The notes under the pieces were generated by a model, which was given only the letters and a program-made list of their open reading frames with translations, had not been told where the DNA came from and ran no database searches. A DNA stretch of 47,585 nucleotides from Bacteriovoracaceae bacterium (lineage in GTDB: Bacteria > Bdellovibrionota > Bacteriovoracia > Bacteriovoracales > Bacteriovoracaceae). Positions 15,783 to 21,505 of this stretch are shown here, in pieces. The position numbers and the translations under genes were made by a program. Position 1 is the stretch's first letter. The number at the start of each line of letters is the position of its first letter. Location: assembly GCA_017858255.1 (NCBI GenBank), contig JAFMBV010000018.1, positions 1 through 47,585 on the forward strand, written 5' to 3'.

Positions 15783-16994
15783 TTATAATCGACCCTCGAG
15801 TAAATAGGTTTTCATCAATCCCTTCCCCTTGACCTCTTTCTCACCATTGTCGGAGAGGGCAAAGTTACCCTTCAGAAGCTGGTAGGTTGAATCTGATACC
15901 TGAACTTTTCCTACGACACCATGAGACTCCATGCGTGAGGCGACGTTAACAGCATCACCCCAAAGGTCATAGATAAACTTCTTTTTACCAATAACACCGG
16001 CCACGACTGGACCACTATTGATTCCTGTCCTTATTTGTAGCGATGTCCCCAATTCTTTATTAATATCTAAGAAAACCTTTTGAAGCTCAAGAGAAAAGTC
16101 TGCCATTTGAATGGCATGTTCTGAGTGAAACTCTGGAATTCCACTTGCCACCATATAAGAGTCACCAATTGTTTTAATTTTTTCCAGTTTATACTTTTCA
16201 CACAGATCATCTATCTGAGAAAAGATTTTATTGAGGATATCTACTAGCTCATTTGGTGTTTTAGTGGACGACAATTGTGTAAAACCAACAATGTCTAGAA
16301 AGAGTACCGTAACCACATCAAACCCTTCTGCGATACTTGTTTTACCTTCCTTTAATTGAGCAGCAATAGGGATAGGAAGGATATTGTGAAGGAGATTTTC
16401 AGCTTTTTCTTGTTCTTTTTCTAGGGCCTCTTCGGCCACATTTACGGAATTATTAAAGTAATAGGCCCATACGCAGATGAGTGATAGTGAGAAAAAGATA
16501 TTAATTTCATTAAAATAAAGGGCAATGTTTTCTTCAACTAAATATATCGGTGCAGCCATTTTGAAATGAAAGTCTAAGTACATGTAGGTTATGATTATAC
16601 TTATGGAGAGTACAAATTTGATGGAAAGATTTTCTTTATCAGTTAAAAAGGGCAAGAAAATAAGGGCAAAGAGATAGTTTTGAAATCCTGTTGATAGGCC
16701 TAAAAAATTTACTGCTAAAATTTGATGTAAAAGTATCTCAATCGTGGCAATTGAGATGGCCAAAAGAAACTTTCTCTCTTTATTTAAATAAAGACATAAG
16801 ATGAAAGTCAAAATACTAAAAATATTAAAAATGGCCATTTTTTCAAAGCCTAAAAAGTAAAAGAGGAAGAGCCACGATGTATGAACTGCTATGGCAAAGA
16901 AATAGGTAATTTTACCTAATATAAAATAGCGTTCTGTTTTTAAGAGGGCTTTTCCAAGATCTTTGCTGTAAATATTATTAAGTCCACTGACCAT
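15783..16994 (-). CDS. Membrane-bound class III adenylate cyclase
   Basis: This is a 403-residue protein. Residues ~25-190 hold about six transmembrane helices. A short coiled linker (ALEKEQEKAENLLHNILP) leads into a class III nucleotidyl cyclase domain from ~215. The two metal-binding aspartates lie in FLDIVGFT (near 233) and TIGDSYM. Purine-specificity positions appear to be Lys (EKIKTIGD) and Asp (YDLWGDAVN), which favours ATP over GTP, and NVASRM supplies the transition-state Asn/Arg. It should make cAMP. It is divergent from the TIGR02147-like gene and shares the control region with the 10-bp repeats. Confidence 0.92.
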   Translation of the reverse strand: MVSGLNNIYSKDLGKALLKTERYFILGKITYFFAIAVHTSWLFLFYFLGFEKMAIFNIFSILTFILCLYLNKERKFLLAISIATIEILLHQILAVNFLGLSTGFQNYLFALIFLPFLTDKENLSIKFVLSISIIITYMYLDFHFKMAAPIYLVEENIALYFNEINIFFSLSLICVWAYYFNNSVNVAEEALEKEQEKAENLLHNILPIPIAAQLKEGKTSIAEGFDVVTVLFLDIVGFTQLSSTKTPNELVDILNKIFSQIDDLCEKYKLEKIKTIGDSYMVASGIPEFHSEHAIQMADFSLELQKVFLDINKELGTSLQIRTGINSGPVVAGVIGKKKFIYDLWGDAVNVASRMESHGVVGKVQVSDSTYQLLKGNFALSDNGEKEVKGKGLMKTYLLEGRL

Positions 16995-17157: not shown

Positions 17158-17279
17158 GATGTCATTTTCTTGAAAAAAATAACATTTAAACAATAGGTAC
17201 CCTAATTAATTACAATATTTGTTAATTTCAAGTGAATCTCTGGTAAGTTTTCTCGAATCTAGTATTGGGAGAGCCAGTA

Positions 17280-18050
17280 GTGACCCTAACAACTCAGCTG
17301 AAAGAGCTCGTTGATAATTATTTTGTCCAACATCCTCATATGAGTATGAATGCTTTGGCGAATAAGTCTGGTGTAGGGGCCACAACCTTAAGAAGAATTC
17401 GAAGTAATTCAATTAAAGGAGATCCTGTTCCTCATACCGTTCTTGGTCTTGTTAGCTCTATTACCAAGGAAAAGCGCCTCTCTATTTTAATAAAAAAATG
17501 TGAGGGCCCTATCGGCGAACTTCTTAAGGAAACATTTGGACCCTATGCTGAAGAGGGAATTACGCATCAGTATTCAGAAGACCTAAACTATTATTTAAAA
17601 GATTCAACTTCATATTTTATATATAAGCTTGCGGCCAACCGGTGTGGAACAAGCCGTTTTGAAATACAAGATAATTATGGACGCCTAGGCCTAAAAAAAT
17701 TAGAAGAATTAATGAACGCTGGTCTAATCACTGAAAAAAAAGAAGAAGAAAAACTCCATGCCACTCGTAAAGACTATGCTCTCGATGTGAATATGGTCGC
17801 CAATCATATGCCTCAGTTAGTCTCCCACTATAAACCAGAGGAAATTAGTGAAGGAAATAATCTCTTTTATACGATGAGTGAAGGTCTTAATGAAGACGGT
17901 ATAAAGAAAGTCAAAGAAGTACAGAAAGAAGCAATAAAGAAAATAATGATTATTATGCAGTCACCATTTTACGAGGGAAATATTCCCTATTTTACTTTGG
18001 ATATGGCAGATACTTTAAAAATGCCTAAGATCAAAGGAGCCTTACAATGA
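17280..18050 (+). CDS. TIGR02147-like transcriptional regulator
   Basis: This is a protein of about 256 residues. The N-terminal part (LVDNYFVQHPHMSMNALANK, then SGVGATTLRRIRSN) looks like a helix-turn-helix. The C-terminal half resembles the TIGR02147/DUF4423 family known from Fibrobacter and Bdellovibrio-group genomes, with a winged-helix-like ADNR-type segment (YGRLGLKKLEELMNAGLI). A TTG at 17265 is also possible, but GGGAGAG sits 7 nt before the GTG at 17280, which is preferred. Its TGA overlaps the ATG of the next gene (ATGA at 18047-18050), so it is translated together with the secreted GEITGAG protein. It probably binds DNA; the target and signal are unknown. Confidence 0.7.
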   Translation: MTLTTQLKELVDNYFVQHPHMSMNALANKSGVGATTLRRIRSNSIKGDPVPHTVLGLVSSITKEKRLSILIKKCEGPIGELLKETFGPYAEEGITHQYSEDLNYYLKDSTSYFIYKLAANRCGTSRFEIQDNYGRLGLKKLEELMNAGLITEKKEEEKLHATRKDYALDVNMVANHMPQLVSHYKPEEISEGNNLFYTMSEGLNEDGIKKVKEVQKEAIKKIMIIMQSPFYEGNIPYFTLDMADTLKMPKIKGALQ

Positions 18051-18406
18051 AATCTATGATCCTGTTAATTACCTTGACCCTTTTTAGTTCCTTAGCACTA
18101 GCTGGAGAAATAACTGGTGCTGGTCAGGCCATTGAAGTTTTGAAGGCCCATAATATAAGTATCAATCAGCTTCAGCAGAGAGGACTAAAGGTTCTTTTAG
18201 GCGAGATTACTGGCGCTGGAAAAAGGTTGGACCTTGATAGGATTAATATGATTGTAACAGGGAGCAAAGTATTAGAGATGCAGCAGGCCAGCCATATCGA
18301 ATTTAAGCACCCAAGTCAGGCAAGAAGCCTAAAAGATGTGAGGCATTTAGAATTTAACCACATCAAAGTTAAGGTCTCTCAGGTTAAGGGAATTATTTAT
18401 AAATAA
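18047..18406 (+). CDS. Secreted protein with repeated GEITGAG motif
   Basis: This 119-residue product has a Sec signal peptide; cleavage after LALA would leave GEITGAG as the mature N-terminus. The same seven residues recur exactly at positions 52-58, 32 residues later. Five of the seven codons differ between the copies, all synonymously, so the peptide rather than the DNA is conserved. The rest is short beta-like segments (HIEFKHPS, HLEFNHIKVKVSQVKG). The start overlaps the stop of the TIGR02147-like gene by 4 nt. The gene is not one I recognise. A secreted signal, adhesin or envelope component whose level is tied to the regulator is an inference. Confidence 0.7.
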   Translation: MKSMILLITLTLFSSLALAGEITGAGQAIEVLKAHNISINQLQQRGLKVLLGEITGAGKRLDLDRINMIVTGSKVLEMQQASHIEFKHPSQARSLKDVRHLEFNHIKVKVSQVKGIIYK

Positions 18407-20170: not shown

Positions 20171-21505
20171 TTATTGACAAAACCTTTGACCTCTCTTGAG
20201 CAGACCATCAATCTCTTTATATTCTAAAGAAATGGGAGAGAAACCACAGTCCATTTTCTCTTTATCACGTTTAACATCAGTTATTTTCTTGTGGAGTTTA
20301 CCTAAGTTTTGACGTCCTTGTTGCCAAAGCTTATGAAAGTCTTTATTGAAATCTAGTAAAACCTCTTTTGCCTCAATCTCTTTTAACTCAATAATATTTT
20401 CTATGTGATTAAACTCACTAGAATAGGACCAGTTAAAGGACCCTGTTAAGAGAAGGTGGTCGTCTATAATAATATATTTAGAATGCATTTGCTTTGTTAG
20501 GTATGCCGCAGTTTTAAGGTGGAAGAACTTTAGACGAATGTCGACATTTTCATGGCCCTCATAATTATCTTTTGCCAAAAAAGCAGCATAGTTCATACTT
20601 GAAGAACATTTACGATCAAATTCATCAGAGCAGTTCTTTATTTTCATTTTTGCCCTTTTTGATGCCCACTCATATTCGCCCATTGTTACGACAATTTGAA
20701 TTTTTATACCTCTTTTTGCTGCTCTAACTAAAGCATTATAGATGGGGCGTAGTTTTAGGCGGGTAGTAGCTATTTCGATTTTGTCACTTGCTTCGTCAAT
20801 AGCGCGAACAACTTCTTTTGTCAGACGAAAGCCTACATCGTTACTCTTTTTTCGTAATTGGCCATTTCGAGCTAAAAAGTTGTTTCGATTAAAGTAAACT
20901 TTTCCGATACTTGGACTTGTCTTTTCAAATGTATAGGGACGTACTTCCTTTTTATGACCAATTTCTTTGCTAATATTCCAGAGGAAATCAAACTCTTCCT
21001 GAAATTGTTGGGCCATATCTCCCTCTTGGTCAAAGAAGAGAATGTTTTCATTGTAATTCTTAAGGGAGCCGATAGACCAATTTGCTGACCCTGAGATGAC
21101 GCTGCCATCTGCTCTATTACCATCTATGACCGCAAACTTATGATGCATTTTCTTTGAAGAAGAAAGCGCACGAGCGTCAATTCCGATTTTCTCGAGAGTT
21201 AACATCTTTGCTAAATTCTCTTCTTTAGAAGAATAGCCTTCAAAAATAAGGCGAATTGAAAGTTCATTAGAATTAATACGGTTTTGAATTTCTTTAGTCT
21301 TTAAAAAGGTAATAATTGAACTTTGATCAGAGGCCTCTAAATTGTAGAGGGCCAGGTCAATTCTTTCACGGGCCGTTTTTAAGCGGGTAACAATGGCGCT
21401 AAAAGTGTCATCGTAAGGGTGAAAGAGAACACTTACTTCTGCAAGGGTGATATTGCTGAAAATGATTAGTGTGAGGAGGATGGCTACATTTTTAATGTTC
21501 TTCAT
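20171..21505 (-). CDS. Secreted phospholipase D-like protein with two HKD motifs
   Basis: This 444-residue protein has a signal peptide (about 22 residues). Two HxKxxxxD motifs are visible: MHHKFAVID (His121, Lys123, Asp128), followed by SGSANWS, and MHSKYIIID near residue 340, followed by TGSFNWS. Both halves of the PLD active site are therefore intact. Substrates could be phospholipids, cardiolipin or nucleic acid (Nuc-type); the sequence does not decide. An AGGAA ribosome site lies 7 nt upstream. Export suggests a role in the periplasm or against other cells. Confidence 0.9.
   Translation of the reverse strand: MKNIKNVAILLTLIIFSNITLAEVSVLFHPYDDTFSAIVTRLKTARERIDLALYNLEASDQSSIITFLKTKEIQNRINSNELSIRLIFEGYSSKEENLAKMLTLEKIGIDARALSSSKKMHHKFAVIDGNRADGSVISGSANWSIGSLKNYNENILFFDQEGDMAQQFQEEFDFLWNISKEIGHKKEVRPYTFEKTSPSIGKVYFNRNNFLARNGQLRKKSNDVGFRLTKEVVRAIDEASDKIEIATTRLKLRPIYNALVRAAKRGIKIQIVVTMGEYEWASKRAKMKIKNCSDEFDRKCSSSMNYAAFLAKDNYEGHENVDIRLKFFHLKTAAYLTKQMHSKYIIIDDHLLLTGSFNWSYSSEFNHIENIIELKEIEAKEVLLDFNKDFHKLWQQGRQNLGKLHKKITDVKRDKEKMDCGFSPISLEYKEIDGLLKRGQRFCQ

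Follow-up and report, generated by a model that had tools for sequence, protein, structure and literature searches.

In the 47,585-nt stretch of Bacteriovoracaceae DNA analysed here (the window), a regulator gene and the gene of a small, probably exported partner protein form a tightly linked cassette, and we regard this cassette and its conservation as established at the level of sequence. The reading that we prefer, with a probability of roughly 0.4, is that the cassette is autoregulated and that a single binder, perhaps the cognate regulator, recognises the glycine-rich motif GEITGAG of the exported partner.

A conserved pair of overlapping genes

The original prediction of a regulator gene that overlaps the gene of a 119-residue protein by the nucleotides ATGA is confirmed, including the coordinates of both genes (Table 1). 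The GTG start of the regulator aligns with the ATG start (MTL..Q) of its homologues, and since these start at the equivalent position, the longer frame from the upstream TTG at 17265 is unlikely. A profile of the regulator found 53 named loci, from which the near-identical duplicate L050 was set aside. The partner stands directly behind the regulator in all 47 orthologous loci (46 named loci and the window); 45 of these, the window included, have the 4-nt overlap and the other two a gap of 2-3 nt. The claimed coupling of the two genes is thus free of exceptions in this set, which holds no homologue lacking the regulator neighbour. Six named loci without the partner carry regulators of 30-38% identity that form a clade of their own. 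Many of the named loci are labelled Bacteriovoracaceae, Bacteriovorax or Halobacteriovorax and others Bdellovibrionales, Deltaproteobacteria or Proteobacteria, which are broad or older names.

A search for homologues of the partner among the Bdellovibrionota had been suggested. Using a 14-sequence profile we found the family in 55 of the 129 genomes of the same GTDB family, while the rest of the 369-genome phylum search, outside this GTDB family, gave no match. In 27 loci from the family search and 20 further stretches, some of them from strongly diverged members and some already in the named set, the pairing is present wherever the script could read it; the regulator regex came back empty in six of these cases, several of which are loci whose regulator had already been seen under the public name. 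The congener G006 has neither the partner nor an orthologue of the regulator.

Table 1. Features of the regulator-partner cassette in the window
Feature	Position	Strand	Description
Candidate promoter/operator element TTTTCTTGAAAAAAATAACATTTAAA	17165..17190	+	26 nt; PWM over upstream regions
Regulator CDS	17280..18050	+	GTG start, 256 aa; orthologues conserved
Regulator N-terminus, lambda-repressor/XRE-type HTH; predicted winged-helix-like part follows			Structure comparison
ATGA stop/start overlap	18047..18050	+	4-nt overlap in 44 named loci and the window
Exported partner (predicted)	18047..18406	+	ATG start, 119 aa; small helix and beta domain predicted (pLDDT 88)
Predicted Sec signal peptide MKSMILLITLTLFSSLALA	18047..18103	+	Cleavage before GEITGAG; heuristic only
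Motif copy 1, GEITGAG	18104..18124	+	Residues 20-26, start of the predicted mature protein; present in the two-copy clade
Motif copy 2, GEITGAG (inner)	18200..18220	+	Residues 52-58; G, E, T and G columns invariant in the 14-sequence alignment

The regulator and its kinship

In the predicted structure of the regulator, the C-terminal third of which is of low confidence, the first ~88 residues resemble XRE/lambda-type helix-turn-helix (HTH) domains (Z up to 7.6 over 71 residues, rmsd 3.6). Residues ~100-250 resemble the winged helix 4g6q (Z 7.8 over 94 residues, rmsd 3.1) and ArsR-type structures compare with the model at Z 6.2-6.8, and all these Z values lie in a range that can reflect a common arrangement.

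The regulator had been described as TIGR02147-like, and a distant kinship does hold: in hhalign the regulator alignment matches 29 TIGR02147 members with a probability of 93.6% over 216 columns, most of its length. The TIGR02147 model itself, at its 50-bit cut-off, is matched by neither the window regulator nor its 13 homologues, a TIGR02147 search of the same genome lists other loci only, and the DUF4423 model does not match the regulator above chance. Taken together, these comparisons support the regulator as a distant relative of TIGR02147 at best. It is like the TIGR02147 (Fsuc_second)/PF14394 DUF4423 regulators in its length, its N-terminal HTH, the distant homology and the placement of an exported partner right after its gene. 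It differs from them in reaching neither model and in belonging to a sub-family of its own, in which the C-terminal Gln, located at the overlap, is invariant.

The region upstream of the regulator

The upstream element is a candidate only, because its position weight matrix (PWM) was seeded by eye. It scores 17.8 in the window, compared with 12.4 for the best of 50 shuffles, and lies ~72-102 nt before the regulator start in most loci of the two-copy clade described below. A palindrome search for an operator found no dyad common to more than three loci, a scan for sigma-70 promoters and terminators gave results near chance, and Rfam yielded no match. At least 26 of the 44 orthologous loci also encode an exported DUF4360-like protein (PF14273, with a Pfam match below the gathering cut-off) ahead of the regulator; none was found upstream of the pair in the window, and these proteins are distinct from the 119-aa partner.

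Upstream of the pair in the window lies a gene for an adenylate/guanylate cyclase with a hydrophobic N-terminal half (15783-16994, minus strand), and an ORF similar to the N-terminal part of this cyclase is also located upstream in L004. An exported PLD-family protein is encoded at 20171-21505 (minus strand) of the window, and in the congeners L003 and L004 a homologous-looking ORF is found directly beside the pair.

The exported partner protein

Export of the partner is predicted from its signal peptide, which was called solely by a hand-written heuristic and by conservation: the homologues keep K/R, a hydrophobic core and a small residue before GE. Members of the family are mostly 104-140 aa long. 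Searches of Pfam, NCBIfam and PHROGs gave no convincing match to the family, and the PDB holds no relative detectable by sequence. Comparison of the partner model with solved structures gave no convincing fold match, with a best Z of 2.7, which does not show a new fold. The model comprises two helices followed by a beta-rich domain (pLDDT 88); the N-terminal motif is located in a less certain stretch, and the inner motif between a strand and a short helix within the confidently predicted domain. The mature partner is under strong purifying selection, with dN/dS values of 0.04-0.10 in the six pairs where they were computable (dS being near saturation in two). Conservation spans the whole mature protein, beyond the motif.

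An ordinary operon is nearly as likely as recognition of the motif. Here a local HTH regulator would simply be encoded together with an exported envelope or prey-facing protein, and the motif, unrelated to the regulator, would be a structural turn or a functional site for a ligand, a metal or a partner protein outside the cytoplasm. The position of the inner motif within the predicted domain and the conservation of the whole mature protein, not of the motif alone, are consistent with this explanation, and a glycine motif beside beta strands could be structural.

The GEITGAG motif and its doubling

As originally described, the motif occurs twice in the window protein, with five of the seven codons synonymously different between the copies. 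The selection on the peptide proposed on these grounds is borne out by the homologues, which keep the motif, and by the low dN/dS values. It had also been asked whether homologues retain both copies next to the regulator; the neighbour is indeed found in 47/47 loci, the doubling in one half of the family only. In the regulator tree, 23 two-copy and 23 one-copy loci each make up one side of a single branch (support 81/53 and 96/91). The inner copy is the more widespread, the N-terminal one being a feature of the two-copy side. Within this side, L059 and L085 have lost the N-terminal copy and carry instead, at another site, a second copy of the form GEFTGAS that has the same F residue. Among the exceptions, L193 has lost the inner copy and kept the N-terminal copy alone, and the inner copy of L195 is degenerate. 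As half of the family is single-copy, two copies are not required, and the persistence of both forms is a further point in favour of an ordinary operon.

Between the two copies, the variable third residue is identical in 12 of 19 non-redundant two-copy proteins compared with 6.2 in shuffles (p 0.0009), and the match over the whole motif gives p 5e-5 against shuffles of the same 19 proteins. A tree-aware simulation with a shared ancestral state yields a weak p of ~0.03 for the residue match, which is only suggestive because tree and rates are approximate. Different codons are used at 91 of 141 identical positions (65%), demonstrating that the match is kept at the protein level. A functionless origin of the repeat, by a recent duplication within the gene or by gene conversion, could explain why the two window copies are identical as peptides. 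It is contradicted by these codon data, and as the flanks are unlike and the copies are retained across the two-copy clade, we give it almost no credence.

The DNA pattern encoding GE-[NTN codon]-TG[A/G]G matches only the two window sites in the 4.08-Mb genome. When a broader pattern was run over 39 genomes, it gave 14 matches inside the partner family and five elsewhere, compared with 13 for a reversed-pattern control; four of the five stray matches are in short or unconvincing frames and one is in a long unrelated protein.

The repeated short peptide with matched residues invites comparison with RRNPP systems, which have been described from Firmicutes and their mobile elements and consist of a TPR receptor of 250-500 aa and a Sec-exported propeptide of 10-100 aa encoded by direct neighbours (PMC10075063). 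Like the pairs PlcR-PapR and Rap-Phr, the window cassette combines an HTH receptor with an adjoining small protein predicted to be exported by Sec; its genes overlap by 4 nt and the regulator, at 256 aa, has the length of an RRNPP receptor. In contrast to these pairs, no TPR was detected, since TPR models at E <= 0.1 matched none of 14 regulator members, the structural neighbours being XRE HTH and winged-helix proteins. Moreover, the partner is a conserved folded protein that, with 119 aa, exceeds the size of the propeptides. Membership in RRNPP thus fails on TPR and size. Signalling of the RRNPP type would require that the partner is an exported pro-signal from which GEITGAG or a mature N-terminal fragment is released, re-imported and bound by the regulator. 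Gene adjacency, the Sec-type signal peptide, the HTH receptor of ~256 aa and the matched repeats would agree with such a route; the TPR result, a partner conserved and folded along its length and an N-terminal copy missing in half of the family make it improbable. A loosely RRNPP-like working of the window pair may apply, and the regulator and exported protein may, as first suggested, serve as a signalling or surface system.

Recurrence of the layout with other partners

In the window genome an exported-type gene repeatedly comes next after paralogues of the regulator and after true TIGR02147 members, in many cases with a 4-nt overlap. Across relatives, a signal-peptide ORF that starts within -25 to +60 nt lies behind 48 of 58 paralogous or TIGR02147 regulators (83%), compared with 99 of 516 other genes (19%); signal peptides were called in both sets by the same simple heuristic, and the background rate was taken from the fetched loci. 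After clustering of the regulators at 40% identity and removal of one doubtful case, 23 of 33 clusters have a signal-peptide gene directly behind (p 4e-10). For most partners of different regulator groups no homology was detected: by hhalign the window partner family matched none of eight partner groups, and in pairwise comparisons of four groups L162 and L115 gave the only match (71%).

Motifs of the form G[DE]xxG[NASG]G are present in 6 of 24 partner clusters and in 5 of 303 other exported-type ORFs (p 3e-5, an optimistic value because the partners had been seen before the patterns were set). In the window genome, GDxVGNG is found in one regulator-linked partner only, and GNGGD is likewise confined to a single gene, a different one that is also linked to a regulator. 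A tag for sorting or processing by a general envelope machine, like the LPXTG or PEP-CTERM signals, would also be short, glycine-rich and often at the mature N-terminus, and could account for similar motifs in other exported partners. Such tags occur in many proteins, whereas GE-x-TG[A/G]G is confined to the partner gene in the window genome; its absence elsewhere in this genome speaks against a general tag, and the equally narrow distribution of GDxVGNG and GNGGD adds to making this explanation very unlikely. An ordinary operon, in turn, leaves unexplained why similar G[DE]xxG[NA]G motifs occur in partners of no detectable homology beside related regulators and why the pair is never separated.

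Metalloprotease-like partners of the exported type with HELGHQ stand behind TIGR02147 regulators in L103, L126, L130, L131 and L133, and these proteins contain SGD[TIV]VGNG twice, 51-60 residues apart. The motif is thereby doubled a second time, here in an unrelated partner. The ORF 1144-2442 of L116 (G000:C141) unites a regulator paralogue and a signal-peptide-like, glycine-rich segment in one frame of 432 aa, an apparent regulator-partner fusion. In L112 (G000:C183) two exported proteins that are alike by eye (914-1318 and ~2220-2644) flank one regulator, and in L152 (G008:C1) a partner-like exported protein with GEQSGGGG is encoded before, not behind, the regulator.

The recurrent layout suggests that self-contained cassettes of this kind make up a regulatory class yet to be described. 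A partial survey of the literature on TIGR02147, DUF4423 and RRNPP in Bdellovibrio turned up no account of them.

Discussion

The preferred reading, autoregulation with recognition of the motif, would work as follows. The cytoplasmic two-domain DNA-binding regulator most likely controls its own operon via the conserved upstream element, and stop-start coupling would lead to translation of the second gene. The output of the operon would be a Sec-exported small folded protein, in which G-E-x-T-G-A-G may act as a recognition element held constant by selection; in two-copy proteins the same binder would read both copies. This binder would most likely be the cognate regulator, which could meet the precursor before export, and the contact between the two would adjust synthesis to export in a feedback loop.

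We infer that the regulator controls its own operon, that the partner is exported and that the regulator reads the motif. Recognition by the regulator is suggested by the restriction of the motif to regulator-linked genes, by similar motifs that recur in partners with no detectable homology and by the match of the two copies within a protein. The cassette model draws on the linkage in 47/47 loci, the purifying selection, the recurrence of the layout (48/58), the relocated motif copy in L059 and L085 and the apparent fusion in L116.

A wider generalization, which we consider rather unlikely, is that the TIGR02147-type regulators of the phylum are a large class of receptors in the cytoplasm, each sensing a motif of its own overlapping exported protein, with regulator and motif coevolving. 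If true, the G[DE]xxG[NA]G-type motif would be the cognate ligand, providing modular, multi-copy protein or peptide sensing in Gram-negative predatory-type bacteria.

Little is known about the control of prey-directed exported proteins in Bdellovibrio-like predators. The recurrent layout, in which a regulator is tightly coupled to an exported protein and some of the partners are metalloprotease-like, offers a handle on such control. As each cassette names its own regulator, its output and a probable recognition motif, testing one pair would allow the rest to be predicted.
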